From the NCBI GenBank assembly GCA_027068915.1, contig JAMOLT010000009.1:1-64000 (forward strand): a stretch of DNA of 64,000 nt, read 5' to 3'. Below, piece after piece: positions 36,438-63,828 of the stretch; the stretch's first letter is position 1, and each line of letters begins with the position of its first letter. This stretch comes from Sedimenticola sp. Lineage in GTDB: Bacteria > Pseudomonadota > Gammaproteobacteria > Chromatiales > Chromatiaceae. The position numbers and the translations under genes were made by a program. The notes beneath the pieces were generated by a model, which saw only the letters and a program-made list of their open reading frames with translations, was not told the DNA's origin and searched no databases.

Positions 36438-36504
36438 TCGACGGCTCCCAGAATCACAAGGACAGGTTGGATCTACAAGGCTATCCTCATGATGAAGGGG
36501 AGGC

Positions 36505-36520
36505 TGTCACTTGAATGACA
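36505..36520 (-). promoter_or_regulatory. TGTCA-N6-TGACA site upstream of the PDH operon
   Basis: CTGTCACTTGAATGACAG; -10-like TAGCCT at 36478-36483 (minus), 21 bp away. Confidence 0.75.
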
Positions 36521-39817: not shown

Positions 39818-40097
39818 AGTTCCCTCCTGTTTTATTTTCCTTGAGCTCGCCGTCAAAGGAAGATTTTGATCAAGCCGTGGATAGTATGAAATGATCTGTT
39901 AGCTGTACCTGAAAAAAGGAAGTGACCAATCCGCGATGGGAACGATGACGTTACACCTCATTTAAAAATCAGTTACAGGCCATGCATGCCCAGATTGGCG
40001 CCGCCACAAAATGTCCTTACCGGTTGTGATCATCTTGCGCATTGTTACCATTTGGAAATACACGTTGGTAATGCTAGCCCATGGTATGTCGCATTTC

Positions 40098-40113
40098 TGT
40101 CACTTGGGTGACA
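40098..40113. promoter_or_regulatory. TGTCA-N6-TGACA site between ppsA and the usp fusion gene
   Basis: CTGTCACTTGGGTGACAG; -10-like AATGAT at 40135-40140 (+) and TAGCAT at 40071-40076 (-), both 21 bp away. Confidence 0.75.
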
Positions 40114-40206: not shown

Positions 40207-41076
40207 ATGTTTCAATTCATTCCGGTTACAGAAAAAAATATTTTTGCAATCAAGGTGACAGGTAAGTTGACCGATGATGATTATCAGCAATTCTTACCCC
40301 AACTCACAACGCTGATTCACAAATATGGCCCGATATCCTTACTGGTGGAGCTTGATGATTTCCATGGCTGGGAGGTAAAAGCCGCGTGGGATGATTTTAA
40401 GTATGGCGAGGAGCATGACAAGGATTTTGTGCGCATCGCTATTGTTGGAGGCAAATCCTGGCAAAAATGGATGGCGGCAATCGGTGATGTTTTCACCCAG
40501 ACCAAGATTCGCTTCTTTCCCCGGGATAAACTTCAGGAGGCTTGGGCGTGGTTGCGGGAAGATGACAAGGAAAAATCCGACTCTTCAATGGAAGCAAAGA
40601 TTGAATTGATTCCAGACAAGATTAAGCCCTACACGCATATACTGGTGGCCCTGGATTTTTCTCCGCATTCCAATTTGGCTCTTGCCCGGGCAACGGAGAT
40701 GGCGCGTTATTACAATGCCAGGTTGTCACTGTTGCATACGGTAGAAAACATTTATTATCCAAGCCTGGACTATGACCCCCTGATGATAGATCCTTCAGAA
40801 TTTATGGAAATTGATCAGCAAACGTATGATCAAGCCGTAGTTCGGATTGAAAAATTGGCTGGAAGCCTAGGTTATCCGAATGTTCAACACGAAGTGCTGT
40901 GGGGAGCGCCAAAGAGCACGGTGCTGTCATATGCGGAAGCTCAGAATGTGGATCTGATCGTTGCCGGTTCTCATGGTAAACATGGTATTGCCAGGCTGCT
41001 GGGTTCTACTGCGAATAGTATTGCGCATGGTGCAAGATGTGATGTGCTTGTTGTGAAGTTTCCTGAAGACCGGTAA
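40207..41076 (+). CDS. SpoIIAA-like / universal stress protein fusion
   Basis: N-terminal FQFIPVTEKNIFAIKVTGKLTDDDYQQFLPQL...GWEVKAAWDD; C-terminal HILVALDFSPHSNLALARA and GSHGKHGIARLLGSTANSI. Confidence 0.9.
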   Translation: MFQFIPVTEKNIFAIKVTGKLTDDDYQQFLPQLTTLIHKYGPISLLVELDDFHGWEVKAAWDDFKYGEEHDKDFVRIAIVGGKSWQKWMAAIGDVFTQTKIRFFPRDKLQEAWAWLREDDKEKSDSSMEAKIELIPDKIKPYTHILVALDFSPHSNLALARATEMARYYNARLSLLHTVENIYYPSLDYDPLMIDPSEFMEIDQQTYDQAVVRIEKLAGSLGYPNVQHEVLWGAPKSTVLSYAEAQNVDLIVAGSHGKHGIARLLGSTANSIAHGARCDVLVVKFPEDR

Positions 41077-41176
41077 CGGCGGAAACAAGGACTGTTGTCT
41101 TCTATATAGTGCAATTTCCAAAGCACACGCCATGCCCGCTGGGCTGGTCAAAATTGTTGTTGCCCATAGTCCAAAT

Positions 41177-41216
41177 TAACAGGATGTTGAAAAACACTGT
41201 TTTCAACATCCTGTTA
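41177..41216. repeat. perfect 17-bp-arm palindrome (family A minimal unit)
   Basis: TAACAGGATGTTGAAAA-ACACTG-TTTTCAACATCCTGTTA. Confidence 0.95.
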
Positions 41217-42005
41217 CAGTTGCCGAGAGACAAAACCCTGGTGCAGATAATGGGCGCCTAGAAAAATCAGTAATGCCGCAAATAGTAATCTCAACCCATG
41301 CTCCGGCAGCCAAAGTGCTATTTTGCTTCCCAGCCATGCACCGCTTAAACTGCCCAACGCCAGTCCTGGAATCAGTCGGGAATGAATGTTGCCCAGGCGC
41401 CAGTTTTCCCATATTCCGCTGGCCACTGCCGGTAGCCTCGCTGCCAGCGAGCATCCCTGTGCAAGCTGCTGCGGCATTCCCATGCCAAGAACGAAAAGCG
41501 GTGCAAGAATGGGGCCTCCGCTAATGCCGATAATGCCAGCTACCAGGCCTTCAATCACACCAACCATTAACAGGTAGGGTATTTCCCATTGATCACTGAT
41601 TGTCAGGGCAGAGCCGATTTCATCCCTGGATATCACCAGGATTCCCCCAACAGCTACGACTATGCCAAAACCTGCTTTCAATCGTTTGGCGGGCCAGTTT
41701 TCTGACCAGCTGGCTGCCAGTGGTGCAACCAACAATGAGGGCAGGGCAACCCAGATGGCAACTGGTAGATCCAGCATGTTGCTCTGGTGGTAGATAAAAG
41801 CGCCCATGCCGGTAGAAAAAATGGCTACTACAATAGCCGTACCCCGTGCGGCAACAGGGGTCAACCCCACCCATCCCATGAGAAGGGGAATAACCAGCGT
41901 CCCGCCACCCAGGCTGACCAGGCCACCTCCAAAGCCTGCGATCAGTCCAATGACAATCGACTTGTAGTACAGCCCCGGCTGTGTTGTTGAGGTCTTTCCA
42001 GGCAT
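41214..42005 (-). CDS. TauE/SafE family sulfite exporter / membrane protein
   Basis: IAGFGGGLVSLGGGTLVIPLLMGWVGLTPVAARGTAIVVAIFSTGMGA; start may lie at 42005 or further upstream. Confidence 0.88.
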   Translation of the reverse strand: MPGKTSTTQPGLYYKSIVIGLIAGFGGGLVSLGGGTLVIPLLMGWVGLTPVAARGTAIVVAIFSTGMGAFIYHQSNMLDLPVAIWVALPSLLVAPLAASWSENWPAKRLKAGFGIVVAVGGILVISRDEIGSALTISDQWEIPYLLMVGVIEGLVAGIIGISGGPILAPLFVLGMGMPQQLAQGCSLAARLPAVASGIWENWRLGNIHSRLIPGLALGSLSGAWLGSKIALWLPEHGLRLLFAALLIFLGAHYLHQGFVSRQL

Positions 42006-42098
42006 GGAATCAGCTCTATCCCGAGTTCGGTTGGAATGCAAAATGGTGAAACTAAACCACATGAAAGATAAATCCTAGTTTCTTCGACCATGTCAGTC

Positions 42099-42114
42099 TG
42101 TCATGTAGGTGACA
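42099..42114. promoter_or_regulatory. TGTCA-N6-TGACA site between tauE and hdeD
   Basis: CTGTCATGTAGGTGACAG; -10-like TATACT at 42136-42141 (+) and TAGGAT at 42072-42077 (-), both 21 bp away. Confidence 0.8.
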
Positions 42115-42184
42115 GAAGCCCCCTGTGAATATGCATATACTTTTTACCATCTAATAATCAATACACTTCTTAGGAGAAAGAGAG

Positions 42185-42760
42185 ATGCAAAAGCCTGGAT
42201 TAACAGCTGGTGATGTTCTTGAGGAAATGCCGAATATGGAACAAGTCAGTCAACGTTTTGGACGTTATTCCATAATCATTGGGATCCTGTTGGTTATTCT
42301 TGGAGGGCTGGGAATTATTCTGCCGGAGCTTATGTCACTGGAAACCACAGTGTTTATTGCGAGCCTGTTTCTTATTGGTGGTGCATTCTGGTTGGTCCAT
42401 GCATTCAAATACAGCCTAAGGGCCTGGTCGGACTGGCTGAAGCCTGTTCTGCTGCTGGTTACCGGTGGCCTGATGCTGTTTTATCCTTTGGGTGGTGTTG
42501 CCGCTGTTGGATTGCTGCTTGCTATTTATCTGCTGCTGGATGCGTTTGGCAGCTTCATGCTCACCTCCGCCCGCCACCCGGAAAAAGGGTGGGGCTGGAT
42601 GATGTTTAACGGTGTGGTGTCATTTATGCTGGCGATATTGTTTTTGATCGGCTGGCCACAGACATCCATGTTCCTGGTGGGATTGTATGTGGCGATCAGT
42701 TTGCTTTTCGATGGATTTGCACTGGTGTATATCGGATGGATGCAGCGTAAATGCACTTAA
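42185..42760 (+). CDS. HdeD family acid-resistance membrane protein (DUF308)
   Basis: six hydrophobic segments; GGLGIILPELMSLETTVFIASLFLIGGAFWLVHA. Confidence 0.85.
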   Translation: MQKPGLTAGDVLEEMPNMEQVSQRFGRYSIIIGILLVILGGLGIILPELMSLETTVFIASLFLIGGAFWLVHAFKYSLRAWSDWLKPVLLLVTGGLMLFYPLGGVAAVGLLLAIYLLLDAFGSFMLTSARHPEKGWGWMMFNGVVSFMLAILFLIGWPQTSMFLVGLYVAISLLFDGFALVYIGWMQRKCT

Positions 42761-42839
42761 TAGGCAGCTTTCTGAACCTTGTCCGAGACGGTTTTCTCTA
42801 TTTTCTGGCAAGTCTTAAGGATCTGTATGGAAATCCACG

Positions 42840-43757
42840 ATGAATACGCCCGTAGGAAAAATGCAGTTCATTCTTGATGCTGCAAAAAAGTATCCCAGAA
42901 TTCCTGTCGCAATTGTTGATGCGGGAGAGCCTCATATACTCAAAGGCATCATGGAATCCGAGCGGGCTGGGTTGGTTGATCCCATTTTTATAGGGCAGAC
43001 GAGCAGAATTCATGCGGTGGCAAAACAGCTGAGCATCAATCTGGAAGGCAGACAGATTATTCAGGCAAACTCTGATGCTGAATCATCGGAAGTGGCGGTA
43101 GATCTGGTTGGGCAGGAAAAGGTCTGCGCCCTTGCAAAAGGCTGGATTCACACCGATACACTTATGCATGCAGTGTTGGGAAAATTGCGTACAGCGCAAA
43201 GGATCAGTCATGTTTTTATTGCTGAACTGCCCACTTATCACAAACTGCTGTTCATTACGGATGCTGCCATCAATATCAATCCGGACATGATGACCAAGGC
43301 GGCTATTGTGCAGAATGCAGTGGATCTTGCGCGGATGCTTGACGTTGAGTTGCCCAAGGTTGCAGCACTGTCGGCGGTGGAGGTGGTTAAACCCGCTATT
43401 CCCTCGACAGTTGATGCTGCCTGTCTCAGTGTCATGTCAAAGCGTGGACAGATAGAAAATGCCGTGGTTGACGGGCCGCTGGCTTTTGACAATGCCATTT
43501 CCTGTGATGCCGCCCAAACCAAGAAAATAAGTAGTGAGGTGGCGGGCGATGTGGATATTCTATTGGCGCCGGATATCGATGCTGCCAATATCCTGTCCAA
43601 GGATCTGGAGTATCTGGCTGGTGCAACCATGGCGGGGATTGTCGTGGGGGCAAGGGTTCCGGTAATCCTGACTTCTCGTTCAGACCCGGCGGAAGCCCGT
43701 TTGCTTTCTGCGGCCTTGGCGGTATTAATGCACTATCGGTGGTTCGCAACGACCTGA
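42840..43757 (+). CDS. phosphate acetyl/butyryltransferase family protein
   Basis: GLVDPIFIGQ; VVDGPLAFDNAIS; APDIDAANILSKDLEYLAGA. Confidence 0.9.
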   Translation: MNTPVGKMQFILDAAKKYPRIPVAIVDAGEPHILKGIMESERAGLVDPIFIGQTSRIHAVAKQLSINLEGRQIIQANSDAESSEVAVDLVGQEKVCALAKGWIHTDTLMHAVLGKLRTAQRISHVFIAELPTYHKLLFITDAAININPDMMTKAAIVQNAVDLARMLDVELPKVAALSAVEVVKPAIPSTVDAACLSVMSKRGQIENAVVDGPLAFDNAISCDAAQTKKISSEVAGDVDILLAPDIDAANILSKDLEYLAGATMAGIVVGARVPVILTSRSDPAEARLLSAALAVLMHYRWFATT

Positions 43758-52476: not shown

Positions 52477-52760
52477 ATTTTTCTCTCCTTGATACAAAGT
52501 GTTCAATTTTATGTGCCATGAATCAAATTCAACATTTCTATTTGAATCGAGCGACGGGCAGCTCTATAAACTGTCATTCTGGTGCAGGCCCGGGTTGGCG
52601 GCGCGATGAAAACCGAGAAACTCAAGATGCCCTATCGTAAAATTTGGTGTATAGCCTCCTCATCAAGCGGCGCTTTTACGGTTTTGCTGTTCATTTCACG
52701 TGCCAAAGTGAGTGACTTGTACTAGAAGTTGTAAAGTTACCTGCTTTGAAATTAATCTAC

Positions 52761-52776
52761 TGTCACCCAAGTGACA
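52761..52776 (-). promoter_or_regulatory. TGTCA-N6-TGACA site upstream of the holin-like-tal-ackA-xfp-glgP operon
   Basis: CTGTCACCCAAGTGACAG; -10-like TAACTT at 52734-52739 (minus), 21 bp away. Confidence 0.65.
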
Positions 52777-53353: not shown

Positions 53354-53369
53354 TGTCATGTGGATGACA
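53354..53369 (+). promoter_or_regulatory. TGTCA-N6-TGACA site upstream of the small ORF / helical protein operon
   Basis: GTGTCATGTGGATGACAG; -10-like TAAACT at 53391-53396, 21 bp away. Confidence 0.75.
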
Positions 53370-53465
53370 GATAGAGATTCCTGTCAGGCATAAACTCACT
53401 TTGTCACATTGGCTGGCGCGAAATGCAGGCCATCTCAAAACTTTTTTGCTAGAGGGGACGCATGC

Positions 53466-53597: not shown

Positions 53598-53650
53598 CTT
53601 AGCTGAAGGGCGCATCATGTTGCGCTCTTTAGGAAACAAACAGGAAAATG

Positions 53651-54316
53651 ATGATGAAAGTCAAAGAACATATTGCTCAGGAAGTTAAAAAGATAGCCAC
53701 CCAAGGCAAGGCCGTTGATGAAAAAGTGGTCGCTTTCGTGAAATCCGATTTTCAGAAGATTCTGGCTGATAGTGAAAAAGCCGGACAGTCGATCAAGCAG
53801 TCGACCAAAGAAATGCTTGAAGGTGTAGAGACAGGTCTCAGGGCTGCTGGGCATAAAACGGAGGATATCGTTTCCAGATCGGCCAATGCCATTGCTGATG
53901 CCACGCACGATATCACGGTGCAATCACTGGATGCTGCGCGCTCCACTGCCAATGATGCCAAGGCCTTGCTGGACAAGGCCGTGGATAAATCCTTTGACGA
54001 CATGGACAAAATAAAGGCCACCACCAAGGCAGGGATGGATAAGGCGTACGCCGCGTTGCAGGAGAAAACGGCTGCAGAAAAACAAAAGCTGAATGAGGTT
54101 GGTGAGGGTATCAAGGAATACGCTGGAAACAAGGCCCATGAGCTGACTGATGCCACGCGCAGTGCGCTGCATAAAAGCGCAGAAAAAAGTATAGATCACC
54201 TGCAGGTACTGACGGAAGTGAGTGAAGCGCACGGCAAGAGGTTGTTGCACCATAGCCACGCCAAAGTGAGTGAGTGGCTGGAAATGCTGAAGAACAAGGT
54301 GCATCACAAGACATAG
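53651..54316 (+). CDS. Ala/Lys/Glu-rich amphipathic helical (LEA/apolipoprotein-like) protein
   Basis: long heptad-like helical sequence without Cys or Pro-rich regions. Confidence 0.8.
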   Translation: MMKVKEHIAQEVKKIATQGKAVDEKVVAFVKSDFQKILADSEKAGQSIKQSTKEMLEGVETGLRAAGHKTEDIVSRSANAIADATHDITVQSLDAARSTANDAKALLDKAVDKSFDDMDKIKATTKAGMDKAYAALQEKTAAEKQKLNEVGEGIKEYAGNKAHELTDATRSALHKSAEKSIDHLQVLTEVSEAHGKRLLHHSHAKVSEWLEMLKNKVHHKT

Positions 54317-58225: not shown

Positions 58226-58984
58226 TCAGGAAAGGTCGTGTTTGTTTTCTAACCGGTGAAGGGCGAGACCAGCCTGATGTTTGAGTGCCCGTAAATCCTT
58301 GACCAGCAGGCTGTCGTTGCTATAGTGAACAATGGCCTCCTTGCGTAGTGTCTGCAGATGCTTATTTACTACCTGCCGCACGGAGCCGAGCATGCGGGCA
58401 AGGGCTTCATGTTTGAGGTCTGCAATGAGGCCTACAGGCAATGGTGAGAGGGGCTGTTCAAAATGACGGCGGGTGTCAGTGTGGCGCAGGATCAGCCGGG
58501 CCAGACGTGAGGCCGTGTCGTACAGGGCCAAGTCTACGGTGAGGGTTTCCATGCTGCGGAGCAGGCTGCCGAGGTAGGGCAGGAAACGCTGATTAAACTC
58601 AGGGTATGCCGATATCCAATGTCTCACGGTATAGATGGGGGCGGAGAGTAACTGCAGATCGTTCATGGCCGTGGGCTCGATGTTGTGCGGCTGACCATCC
58701 AGCAGAGTGATGATATCGAAGCCATCACCCGGACCGAGCAAGAACAAGGTGATACTTCTGCCGGTGTTGGGGTTGCTACGGGTGACCTCAATGCGCCCGT
58801 CAAGGACAATGAAAAAATGTGTCCTCAACATCTCCGTGCTGATAGTCAACCCCTTGCCGTAGGTCTTGTGGTGGAAGACGGATAACATTTCTTCCAGCAT
58901 AGGTTGTGGCAAGCCACTGAACAGTGGCGACTTTTCCAATATGCTTAGATGCAGGGAACTGGCCGAATGGTTGCCCATGCTCAT
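58226..58984 (-). CDS. CRP/FNR-family transcriptional regulator
   Basis: cNMP-binding-like N-terminus and HTH LKHEALARMLGSVRQVVNKHLQTLRKEAIV; start set at ATG 58984. Confidence 0.9.
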   Translation of the reverse strand: MSMGNHSASSLHLSILEKSPLFSGLPQPMLEEMLSVFHHKTYGKGLTISTEMLRTHFFIVLDGRIEVTRSNPNTGRSITLFLLGPGDGFDIITLLDGQPHNIEPTAMNDLQLLSAPIYTVRHWISAYPEFNQRFLPYLGSLLRSMETLTVDLALYDTASRLARLILRHTDTRRHFEQPLSPLPVGLIADLKHEALARMLGSVRQVVNKHLQTLRKEAIVHYSNDSLLVKDLRALKHQAGLALHRLENKHDLS

Positions 58985-59175: not shown

Positions 59176-60453
59176 TCAATATTTATTGTGGATCAAGCCG
59201 CGCAGTCGTGCACGAATGGATTCATAAAGATCTCGCTGTTTAGGGTCTTTTCGGATAATGGCAAGCTCCTTCAATGCCTGGTTCAATTCCTTGCGACTCT
59301 TTTCATCAAGGTTCCCCCGGGCTGCGCTGTCGAGTTCGCTCTTGGCTGTGTCCAGGGCCTGGAAGATGTCTGCTGGGTCGCTCATGGCATAGAACTGCAT
59401 GTTTTCGGCAAAGGCCACATGCTGCTTGGCTTCGATGAGGTCGGCGCGAAGGTCTGCTTTCGGACGTTTTTCTTTCCAACCGATAAAGGCTTTCTCCAGC
59501 TCCCGTTCAACCATGGAATCAATTTTCTTTAAGATCCCCTCGATATTGTTGCCAAAATCCTTGTCATGCTGGTCGAGTTTGACTGCCAGCTTGTCGATCT
59601 GTTTCCCCATCTGACGGATCATATTGAACCGATCCACTGCATCAGTGGTGGTTTTGTCGATGCTTCTTTTGTCCACTTCCAGCCACTTCCTGGCAGCCAG
59701 AAGATCGGCTTTGGCCTCCTCGAAGTTTTTGGCACTATAGTCCTGCCGGGCCAGATAGAGGTTGCTGCGAACCTCTGCAAGGGGAGAGGTGATTTCCATG
59801 GATAGGTAGAGTACGCTGCCTTCAGCCGCTTCCAGTGCCTTGTCGGCCTGCTGGAGATTGCCGTTGGCAAGCGCTTTCTGAGCCGTGGCGATATGCTCTG
59901 CAGTTGATGAGAGGGGTAGATCCATTTCGGTGTAGATCAGCGCTTCCTGTACCGCAACTAGAGCGTTTGTCGCTACTTCCTTATCCCCTTTTTTTAGTGC
60001 CTGTCCTGCTTTTTCCAAATGTTTTCGGGCCAGATGAACTGGGACAATATCCTCAATAGCTGTTAAATCAGAATAGATGGGAATAAGGTCTGTAGTGACA
60101 TCTGCCGGCTTCTTGAAGTTCAGGTGCTCTTTTGCAACTTGGGTGTGTTTAATCGCCTTGGCAGTAGGGCGTGCGTCTTTGATGATCGCCAAGAGTGCCC
60201 CGGCTGCGCCCAATTCTTTCTCCGCCCGGCTCTGGTCTTTGTCGTGAATGGCAGAGCGGGCTTGAGCAATGTGCACCAGGACATTGGCTGCAGAAAAAGA
60301 GACATCATATTGCTGGTGGCTGCTTATGGTGTGCTTGGTGCTGGTATTCTGCGTGGTCTGGTCGGTGCTTTTTGCGGCCATACCTGCAGAGGAAAGTGTG
60401 CCCAGGGAGATTGCGATGAGCAATGGAAGTAGTTTTTTGCGCATTGTTTTCAT
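59176..60453 (-). CDS. YfdX family periplasmic protein
   Basis: signal peptide; repeated helical ALxxxDxxxAxxxLxxA units characteristic of YfdX. Confidence 0.85.
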   Translation of the reverse strand: MKTMRKKLLPLLIAISLGTLSSAGMAAKSTDQTTQNTSTKHTISSHQQYDVSFSAANVLVHIAQARSAIHDKDQSRAEKELGAAGALLAIIKDARPTAKAIKHTQVAKEHLNFKKPADVTTDLIPIYSDLTAIEDIVPVHLARKHLEKAGQALKKGDKEVATNALVAVQEALIYTEMDLPLSSTAEHIATAQKALANGNLQQADKALEAAEGSVLYLSMEITSPLAEVRSNLYLARQDYSAKNFEEAKADLLAARKWLEVDKRSIDKTTTDAVDRFNMIRQMGKQIDKLAVKLDQHDKDFGNNIEGILKKIDSMVERELEKAFIGWKEKRPKADLRADLIEAKQHVAFAENMQFYAMSDPADIFQALDTAKSELDSAARGNLDEKSRKELNQALKELAIIRKDPKQRDLYESIRARLRGLIHNKY

Positions 60454-60541
60454 ATTGCTTATTCCTCTTCATGACAAATAAAACTGATACATGTAAATCC
60501 CCCCAAGGAAGAGAAATTTAGCAATTCCATCTGCTATTGGC

Positions 60542-60557
60542 TGTCACTTAACTGACA
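60542..60557 (-). promoter_or_regulatory. TGTCA-N6-TGACA site upstream of yfdX
   Basis: CTGTCACTTAACTGACAA; -10-like TAAATT at 60515-60520 (minus), 21 bp away. Confidence 0.78.
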
Positions 60558-60589: not shown

Positions 60590-60605
60590 TGCCACGTGGA
60601 TGACA
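60590..60605. promoter_or_regulatory. degenerate second TGTCA-N6-TGACA site (TGCCA-N6-TGACA)
   Basis: TGCCACGTGGATGACA; 48 bp centre-to-centre from the 60542 site. Confidence 0.45.
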
Positions 60606-60986: not shown

Positions 60987-63737
60987 CTATATCATCAAAG
61001 CGCCACCTTTTGTTTTACGATAGAAGCGTAGCACCATCATTTTGACTGCATCATTGAAGACAAACCAGGTTAATGCGTAAGCCCACATGCTTAGCGCCCA
61101 TTCCCAGCCGATAGGAGTCATCAAACCGAAGCCATATACGGCGATGATGGTGCCAACCACCCGGCTGGAGAAGGTAGCAGAGAAAAGAATCCAAGAAGGG
61201 TAGGGGCGTTTGAAAAACCAGTCATCGATGCGGGTATTGTATATCGTGCCGTGACCGGCAATGATTAATTTTGCAAAGAACACTGATTGCACGAAATCTA
61301 TAGGTAGTTTCATGTAGACGATTAGCACCCAGAATAACAGGAAGGAAGAAAAGACTCCCGCCAGCCCCAGCCAAGTAGCCATAACCAATACTTGGTGCAT
61401 GTCCCAACGCACCGGCCTTTCCCGTACCTTGGTATTGTCGTAAGCAATGGTCAAGATGGGGATGTCATTCAACAAAGCCAGTACGATAATCATCAATGCC
61501 GTAACCGGGTAAACCTGAAATAGACCGATCGCCAGGCTCATGAAGATAATTATACGAATAGTTTCGGCGATACGAAAAATTGTATAGCTTTGCATGCGCT
61601 CGAAGGTGATACGAGCCTGTTTGATGGCGTCAACGATAACCCGGAGGCCTGAAGCCATCAGAACGATATCAGCGGCTTTTTCTGGCGAATAGGGTGTACC
61701 GTTCACGGAAATGCCAATCTCAGAACTGGTTGTACTACTGCTGTCCCCAGTTAGTTTAACCTCATGACCAGCATTTTCTAATTCCTGGACAATGGTATCA
61801 AGGCTTGGCTCAACTAGCACAATATCCGCTGCTGCACGAGCTGCATCAGTGGCGCCACTGACAGCTATGCCTACGTCTGCCTTTTTTAAAGCAGGTGCAT
61901 CATTGACGCCATCACCGGTCATACCAACGATATGCCCGGCTTTCTGTAATTTATCCACGATAAAATATTTGTCTTCGGGATACACTTGTGCGAAGCCATT
62001 TGCAGCTTCTATTTGGGCGACAATTTCTGACTCATGTTTCTTTATCGTTCCTTGGGGTAGCACTTTAGTAGTCAGTTCTTTGCGTACCTGATCAACGATA
62101 TGCTCAACCGTCTGATCAAGCTGTTCGTTGGAGATATCCGTCTTGAGTGTTTTTAGCATCGCTTTGGAGATGACCTGTGCCAGCATCAGATATTCTTCTG
62201 CATTTTCCCCCTGAAGTTCACGAACATCCTCTATTTTATCGCCGATATCCAGCAATCTAGCTATGTATCGGGCGACTGCAAGGTTGTCACCAGTCACCAT
62301 TTTTGTTTCTACGCCCTTGGCTTTGGCTTCTGCGATGGTATCTTTGGAATCTTCGCGGGGCGGGTCAAACAACGGTATCAGGCCGACAAAGGTGTATTCC
62401 CTTTCATCTGTTTTCCTGAAAGCTACTCCCAGTGTACGAAAGCCACGTTGTGCAAAGGTATCAACCTGGTCATAGGCAGCTTGTTTGTCAAAGTCATGGT
62501 TATGGCACAACTCAATGATGACCTGTGGTGCGCCCTTTGTCGCAACCACGTCAATACCATTGCTGGTAGATATGACAGCTTCAGTGCGCTTGATCACCGG
62601 ATCAAAGGGGGTGAATTTCTTTAGTGTGTAGGTATCCAGTTTTGTCTGTAATCCACGTTTATTTATAACATTGAAAATTGGCTGCTCTATGGGATCCCTG
62701 TTTTCTGGTCGGCTGGCAAGCGCGGCATACAGAAACAGATCATCTTCTTTGAATGCTCCGGATACATAGGGTTGGGCAATGGTCATCCTGTTTTGCGTCA
62801 ACGTGCCGGTTTTGTCGGAGCACAAGATATCCATCCCGGCGAGTTCTTCAATGGCATCAAGGCGACTGACAATGGCCTGTTTCTTTGCGAGAGCAACGGC
62901 GCCAATGGCCATGGTGACAGTCAATACCGCAGGCATTGCCACGGGAATGGCGGAGATAGTCAGTACCAGGGAAAATATCAGCAGTTCCGTCAGTGGTTCT
63001 CCCCGGTGTATACCCAAATATACGATGATGGCGATCATCACCAAGGTAAGTAGAATCAGGAAATTACCTACTTTGATGACCATGCGCTTGAAATGGCTGC
63101 GGCCCTCCATTTCTGCCTTGGCGACTAGGCCAACGGTTTTCCCAAAATAAGTGTTCAGGCCGGTGCCAGTGACAGCAGCAAGCATTTCGCCCTGTTTGAC
63201 GACGGTGTTGGCATAGGCTTCTTCATCCGGTTTTTTATTGACGGGTAAAGATTCGCCAGTCATGGCAGATTGATCAATTTGCACAAAATCACTGCCTCCA
63301 AGCAGCTTGATGTCTGCTGGAATAACATCGCCAATTTTTATTTTTATAATGTCGCCGGGCACCAGTTCTGCCGCATCCAGTTGCTGCCATTGCCCGTCTC
63401 TCTTTACCAGTGCTACCAGGGCAAGTTTCTTTTTTAGTACTGCAATGGCGTTTAATGCCTTGGATTCCTGGTAGAAATCGACGAAAGCATTCACCAGCAA
63501 CATCATCATGATAATGATGAAGTCCTCCCAACGTTGTGCGGAGGCTGAAAGAATCGCTGCTATTTCAATCATCCAGGGAATGGGGCCCCAGAATCTGCGT
63601 GCCAGCCTTGTTAGCCAGCCCGCTTCTTTGGTTTCTATGCGATTGAAACCAAATTTCTGCAGGCGCTTTTTGGCCTCTTCACTGCTGAGTCCGGTGTCTG
63701 GGTTGGTTTGCAGGGGTGAAAAATCAGTATCTGGCAT
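60987..63737 (-). CDS. P-type ATPase, P3A (plasma-membrane proton-efflux) type
   Basis: DKTGTLTQNRM; TGES; MTGDGVNDAPALKKADVGIAVSGATDAARAAADIVL. Confidence 0.93.
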   Translation of the reverse strand: MPDTDFSPLQTNPDTGLSSEEAKKRLQKFGFNRIETKEAGWLTRLARRFWGPIPWMIEIAAILSASAQRWEDFIIIMMMLLVNAFVDFYQESKALNAIAVLKKKLALVALVKRDGQWQQLDAAELVPGDIIKIKIGDVIPADIKLLGGSDFVQIDQSAMTGESLPVNKKPDEEAYANTVVKQGEMLAAVTGTGLNTYFGKTVGLVAKAEMEGRSHFKRMVIKVGNFLILLTLVMIAIIVYLGIHRGEPLTELLIFSLVLTISAIPVAMPAVLTVTMAIGAVALAKKQAIVSRLDAIEELAGMDILCSDKTGTLTQNRMTIAQPYVSGAFKEDDLFLYAALASRPENRDPIEQPIFNVINKRGLQTKLDTYTLKKFTPFDPVIKRTEAVISTSNGIDVVATKGAPQVIIELCHNHDFDKQAAYDQVDTFAQRGFRTLGVAFRKTDEREYTFVGLIPLFDPPREDSKDTIAEAKAKGVETKMVTGDNLAVARYIARLLDIGDKIEDVRELQGENAEEYLMLAQVISKAMLKTLKTDISNEQLDQTVEHIVDQVRKELTTKVLPQGTIKKHESEIVAQIEAANGFAQVYPEDKYFIVDKLQKAGHIVGMTGDGVNDAPALKKADVGIAVSGATDAARAAADIVLVEPSLDTIVQELENAGHEVKLTGDSSSTTSSEIGISVNGTPYSPEKAADIVLMASGLRVIVDAIKQARITFERMQSYTIFRIAETIRIIIFMSLAIGLFQVYPVTALMIIVLALLNDIPILTIAYDNTKVRERPVRWDMHQVLVMATWLGLAGVFSSFLLFWVLIVYMKLPIDFVQSVFFAKLIIAGHGTIYNTRIDDWFFKRPYPSWILFSATFSSRVVGTIIAVYGFGLMTPIGWEWALSMWAYALTWFVFNDAVKMMVLRFYRKTKGGALMI

Positions 63738-63812
63738 GTTGGTTTACCCCTCGGGTTTTTCGGAGGCTGCATGTAACATTGGAAAATTATAAGCGGCGGA
63801 ACAGGGGGGTAC

Positions 63813-63828
63813 TGTCATTTATGTGACA
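63813..63828 (-). promoter_or_regulatory. TGTCA-N6-TGACA site upstream of the P-type ATPase
   Basis: CTGTCATTTATGTGACAA; perfect -10 TATAAT at 63786-63791 (minus), 21 bp away. Confidence 0.85.

Follow-up and report, generated by a model that had tools for sequence, protein, structure and literature searches.

A candidate pair of cAMP-independent CRP/FNR-family activators and the TGTCA palindromes of a putative stress and energy-reserve regulon in Sedimenticola sp.

The cAMP receptor proteins (E. coli CRP, M. tuberculosis CRP, GlxR and Clr) were the best fold and sequence matches of Crp1, the CRP/FNR-family protein encoded in the analysed DNA (64,000 nucleotides of a Sedimenticola sp. contig, hereafter the window), and they share the class II geometry of its presumed sites, but Crp1 has Ile, His and Asn at the cAMP contacts and Gln in the place of Glu181. 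It was rejected as a true CRP, since neither the cAMP contacts nor the TGTGA-N6-TCACA sites were present, the sites of the cluster being TGTCA. The preliminary description of this DNA had named CooA as a precedent for TGTCA-type recognition: CooA combines the CRP fold with Arg-Gln at positions 180-181 (PDB 1ft9) and TGTC-type half-sites, e.g. the Desulfovibrio CooA sites TGTCGGCnnGCCGACA (PMC545781), and Crp1 shares both the residue pair and the half-site type. However, the overall similarity of Crp1 to CooA was weak (phmmer E 3e-7 to 1ft9 and 4e-10 to 2fmy), the inner half-site bases of CooA are unlike those of the TGTCA sites in the cluster, and no coo (CO dehydrogenase) genes were present among the annotated genes beside these sites. 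The HcpR/DNR/NnrR regulators (PMC1274295) are cysteine-independent members of the superfamily whose residues 180/181 vary in step with the site bases (Arg180 paired to G3 and Glu181 to A6 of wTGTGA), but their motifs and targets (hcp, denitrification) are different. NtcA has the same fold and its model was the best curated NCBIfam match of Crp1 (E 5e-10), but the score was 39.5 bits where the cut-off is 245, and Crp1 was rejected as an NtcA. With FNR only the superfamily is shared: Crp1 lacks the ligands of the [4Fe-4S] cluster (no Cys versus the four required) and was not accepted as an FNR. RedB (PMC9603854) was also dismissed as a known member, its motif being non-palindromic and AT-rich and its targets different. 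The open-licence literature that was searched gave no account of the regulator family to which Crp1 and its paralogue Crp2 belong, or of their regulon, and this CRP-family branch is apparently undescribed so far.

The crp1 gene (58226..58984, minus strand) is predicted to encode an activator of 252 aa. The protein matched Pfam HTH_Crp_2 (E 4.8e-10) and cNMP_binding (E 9e-8), both domains (PF13545 and PF00027) being over their cut-offs, which gives an N-terminal cNMP-type beta-roll followed by a C-terminal Crp-like helix-turn-helix. The structure prediction proposed in the preliminary description agreed with this arrangement: the AlphaFold2 model (pLDDT 90.8) was CRP-like and its top Foldseek matches were M. 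tuberculosis CRP (MtbCRP; TM 0.72-0.88), GlxR and Clr. On the Pfam matches and the model, Crp1 is a member of the CRP/FNR superfamily. Read from the ATG at 58984, its 252 residues include no cysteine, as had been claimed, which excludes an FNR-type Fe-S cluster. An alternative in-frame TTG at 59179 would give a protein of 317 aa with cysteines, but the ATG was preferred because the starts of the aligned homologues fall near 58984/58978. Many relatives of Crp1 at the related loci have 1-4 Cys, and the absence of cysteine was dropped as a trait of the family.

The recognition helix GSVRQVVNKHL (residues 200-210; 58355..58387, minus strand) was placed by alignments and by comparison with the CooA helix GSSRQTTSTALN; Q204 occupies the CRP Glu181 position, and the alignment given earlier (R180=R, E181=Q, R185=K) proved right. 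The region corresponding to the cAMP phosphate-binding cassette of CRP (residues 85-106; 58667..58732, minus strand) was located by alignment with MtbCRP and by family conservation. The stretch F-G-E...P-R-T of the cAMP-binding MtbCRP reads F-D-I...P-H-N in Crp1, with Ile91, His100 and Asn101 at the places of CRP Glu72, Arg82 and Ser83. The proposed loss of the cAMP pocket was borne out by these replacements, which make cAMP binding by Crp1 unlikely. His100, which is located in the former pocket, was kept in 75 of the 82 aligned family members.

The number of TGTCA sites in the genome is far above chance: exact TGTCA-N6-TGACA occurred 10 times in 2.83 Mb, including 7 copies in the window, while the reversed control pattern was absent. 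Eight of the 10 sites lay within about 32 kb (C9:36505-68403) that also holds both crp genes (binomial p ~1e-14 for a given 32 kb). The site nearest to crp1, TGTCAGTTAAGTGACA (60542..60557, minus strand), is followed at offset 21 by a -10 box TAAATT (60515-60520) and stands upstream of a gene for a YfdX-domain protein (59176..60453, minus strand; Pfam YfdX E 1e-23). The latter is probably co-transcribed with crp1, as had been suggested: both genes are on the same strand 191 bp apart, no terminator-like element was found on the minus strand, and the order site-yfdX-crp1 is kept in another Sedimenticola contig (L033). A second site with one mismatch was observed in the yfdX upstream region at 60590-60605, 48 bp from the exact one. 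Further upstream, TGTCACATAAATGACA (63813..63828, minus strand; -10 TATAAT, 63786-63791) precedes the gene of a P-type H+-ATPase of the plasma-membrane type (60987..63737, minus strand; NCBIfam TIGR01647).

The remaining exact sites of the window were associated mostly with genes of carbon metabolism and stress protection. The site TGTCATGTGGATGACA (53354..53369, plus strand; -10 TAAACT, 53391-53396) lies upstream of a helical, apolipoprotein-like protein (53648-54316), and TGTCACTTGGGTGACA (52761..52776, minus strand; -10 TAACTT, 52734-52739) heads a holin4-transaldolase-AckA-phosphoketolase-GlgP run identified by Pfam (52506 down to 44751). Two sites are located between diverging genes: TGTCATGTAGGTGACA (42099..42114) is common to TauE (41214-42062, minus strand) and DUF308-PTA (42185-43757, plus strand) and has -10 boxes on both sides (TATACT, 42136-42141, plus strand; TAGGAT, 42072-42077, minus strand), and a second copy of TGTCACTTGGGTGACA (40098..40113; -10 TAGCAT, 40071-40076, minus strand) separates PPDK-PGM (39856 down to 36656, minus strand) from a SpoIIAA-USP gene (40207-41076, plus strand). 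Finally, TGTCATTCAAGTGACA (36505..36520, minus strand; -10 TAGCCT, 36478-36483) precedes the PDH operon (36437 down to 33215). Outside the cluster, two further sites were found, near another SpoIIAA-USP gene and a gene for a YflT-like small heat-stress domain protein (L014:7920-8312, contig C61). In relatives the target genes keep their sites though the gene order is shuffled. A site precedes a YflT-domain gene at locus L069 and, in Sulfurimonas-type genomes, an Hsp20 gene adjoining crp. The common theme of the site-linked genes is stress protection together with energy from stored carbon. Two other features of the window were recorded, i.e. a tmRNA gene at 37-403 (tag ANDDNYALAA) and an intergenic repeat TTAACAGGATGTTGA with 8 near-copies against 0.04 expected (at 41176, 41203, 44518, 52839, 58146, 60686, 60826 and 60840), several of them near the ends of cluster genes, which is possibly REP-like or terminator-associated.

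Of the 115 flanks of 58 different TGTCA sites, 41 had a TANNNT that began precisely 21 bp past the site, compared to a mean of 1.7 flanks and never more than 6 at other offsets, and all 8 sites of the cluster on contig C9 had such a box in at least one direction. A 16-bp site and 21 bp to the -10 box place the site centre at -41.5, which for CRP/FNR activators such as E. coli CRP is the class II position. The groups of relatives with His, Ala, Val or Thr at position 181 also had 21 bp between site and box. The fixed distance is most simply explained by activator sites, so that Crp1 and Crp2 are probably activators at sigma-70 promoters and repression through the TGTCA sites is unlikely.

The crp2 gene (C9:64134-64919) lies about 130 bp past the window end. 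It closes a usp-MBL-fba-crp2 run that has a TGTCA site (C9:68388) at its head. Crp2 has 41% identity with Crp1, and its recognition helix GSARQVVNRHL contains the same Arg-Gln. Among the eight CRP-family proteins of the genome, Gln181 was confined to Crp1 and Crp2; the remaining six all have Glu and were rejected as owners of the TGTCA sites. In the tree the Gln proteins formed one clade (96/94), within which Crp1, on a long branch (0.73), grouped with L031, L033 and L034 (100/98), and Crp2 belonged to a separate clade (100/100). TGTCA sites were present both in genomes with the Crp1 type only (G056, G058, G059) and in those with the Crp2 type only (G007, G010, G014), hence either type appears sufficient for the sites, and in the present organism both proteins probably act at them. 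Two genus members, G005 (84% complete) and G006, had sites with no homologue detected; these fragmentary assemblies were set aside as counter-examples, the G006 contig breaking off right after fba, exactly where crp2 should begin. In some gammaproteobacteria (L064, L065, L066, L072, L076) related proteins of the Val181 type are encoded as adjacent tandem pairs, which suggests paired or heterodimeric regulators.

When 84,980 species genomes were scanned, the compared ones being mostly incomplete MAGs, 80 related loci were recovered, spanning Sedimenticola, Thiolapillus, Thiotrichales and Thiohalobacter MAGs to Desulfobulbaceae, Nitrospirota and Campylobacterota. Exact TGTCA-N6-TGACA was found at 22 of the 26 loci with Gln181 (37 sites; four Gln loci had no exact site nearby) and at none of the 54 loci with other residues (Fisher p 6e-16, with the loci treated as independent and their relatedness ignored). 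Unbiased counting of palindromes gave TGTCA as the top word in the Gln group only and TGCTA as that of the His group (12/15 loci), while TGTGA-N6-TCACA palindromes were absent from all 80 loci. On the scale of whole genomes, the 16 genomes with Gln had 3.4 copies of TGTCAY-N4-RTGACA on average and the 19 without it 0.58 (p 1e-5, relatedness ignored), and within the genus the sites were more numerous in genomes with a detected homologue (p 0.0015, relatedness ignored). As all Gln proteins form one clade, the link between Gln and TGTCA counts as a single evolutionary event. Two deviations were observed: in a Thiohalobacter-like Gln subclade (L032, L039, L046, L051, L052) many sites were mixed, pairing a TGTCAC half with a TGYAAC half, and the protein at L020 (genome G026) has Pro at the 181 position (GSVRPVVARLL), with two TGTCA sites in the genome but none on its own contig.

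The other branches of the family were accompanied by different half-site words, namely TGCYACTTAAGTGGCA (TGCYAC type) in the Lys group, TGCTAC..GTAGCA in the Ala group, TGTAAC..GTTGCA in the Val/Ile group and TGTRAC..GTRGCA in the Thr group. No motif was found at the related loci for a second Lys clade (L068, L071, L073, L079) or for the Ser group. All words fit into a common frame TGNNACYYRRGTNNCA, whose scrambled-order control had no match in about 1 Mb. The variation was confined to positions 3-4 of the TGNNA core: Arg180 and the G paired with it are fixed, the next two bases vary and the A is constant, unlike the Glu181-A6 link reported for other members of the superfamily (PMC1274295). 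We infer that the base pair altered in TGTCA is read by Gln181 together with adjoining residues of the helix.

With the ownership of the sites, the main competitor of a joint role of Crp1 and Crp2 is Crp2 on its own, with Crp1 a diverged paralogue that has other or no targets or is an antagonist at the same sites. Such a division is in agreement with the retention of the Crp2 type in most genus members that have sites, including the three genomes where it is alone, and with the long branch of Crp1. Yet Crp1 retains Arg-Gln and an intact helix, and its closest relatives L031, L033 and L034 are the only family members found in their genomes, where TGTCA sites are still present, some of them directly before yfdX-crp1 or crp1, which makes this division improbable. 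The earlier choice of Crp1 as the candidate regulator thus stood as far as a Gln181 reader is concerned and was amended to the pair Crp1 and Crp2; the Crp2 type is alone in the near-complete G007. Much further from consideration, with hardly any probability left to it, is a regulator of another kind, e.g. a repressor or the sigma-54 enhancer-binding protein encoded at C9:69595-71124, about 1 kb beyond the last site. The fixed 21 bp to a sigma-70 type -10 box corresponds to the CRP class II geometry and not to a sigma-54 enhancer, on which ground this candidate was rejected; moreover, the protein has a FleQ domain, its gene adjoins flagellar genes, and between genomes the sites track the Gln-type CRP genes. 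A Gln181 CRP-family protein as the reader of the TGTCA sites, in contrast, fitted every comparison made.

A different doubt concerns the residue itself and is compatible with the joint role of Crp1 and Crp2: residue 181 and the half-site might be linked through shared ancestry only, with the specificity set elsewhere in the helix or wing. This is a tentative but serious alternative, given that Gln is monophyletic, that helix positions 184-186 co-vary and that the Ala and Val proteins of one clade use a common TGTAACTTAAGTAGCA word. On the other side, the half-sites change at those positions of TGNNA where the contacts of CRP Glu181 and Arg185 lie while the G paired with Arg180 stays constant, and CooA, which is outside this family, likewise pairs Gln with TGTC. 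The earlier explanation of the TGTGA to TGTCA change by Gln in the place of Glu181 was amended in this respect: residue 181 as the sole switch is a step that we infer only, since Gln had a single origin and further positions of the helix differ along with it. The broader proposition has, in our estimate, an even chance of being correct: the residue in the place of Glu181, jointly with those next to it in the helix, may be a natural specificity switch in a CRP/FNR branch not previously described, which would respond to a non-cAMP signal and activate genes of stress and energy reserves through a fixed class II frame (TGNNACYYRRGTNNCA, 21 bp, TANNNT), where Gln goes with TGTCAC, His with TGCTAC, Lys with TGCYAC and others with TGTAAC/TGTGAC, in sulfur-oxidising gammaproteobacteria, Desulfobulbaceae, Nitrospirota and Campylobacterota.

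Comparative sequence evidence shows that the sites exist and cluster, that they keep their spacing to the -10 box, that they co-occur with Arg-Gln proteins and that the regulon is conserved. It makes it highly probable that Crp1 and Crp2 represent a cAMP-independent CRP/FNR branch which binds TGTCA palindromes and activates a class II stress and energy-reserve regulon. Both proteins would bind directly to CTGTCAYYYRRRTGACAG palindromes centred at -41.5 and, when bound, activate class II promoters, including those of their own operons (yfdX-crp1 and usp-MBL-fba-crp2). The regulon would comprise universal stress proteins, phosphoketolase/acetate kinase, glycogen phosphorylase, PPDK, aldolase, PDH, the H+-ATPase and YfdX. 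Through glycogen phosphorylase, phosphoketolase and acetate kinase, together with the USPs and the H+-ATPase, stored glycogen might be fermented and ion gradients kept. The signal may be energy or redox stress, e.g. loss of the oxidant, a guess made because the targets would let a sulfur oxidiser ferment its glycogen.

The reading of one recognition helix has thus led to a testable regulon with two regulators, an exact site, an exact geometry and a conserved list of targets. The family offers a natural series of CRP-fold proteins in which helix residue and half-site change together in a fixed promoter frame, which opens the CRP specificity code to direct tests by swaps. For the organisms themselves, such a regulon would explain how chemosynthetic sulfur oxidisers survive after the loss of their energy source.
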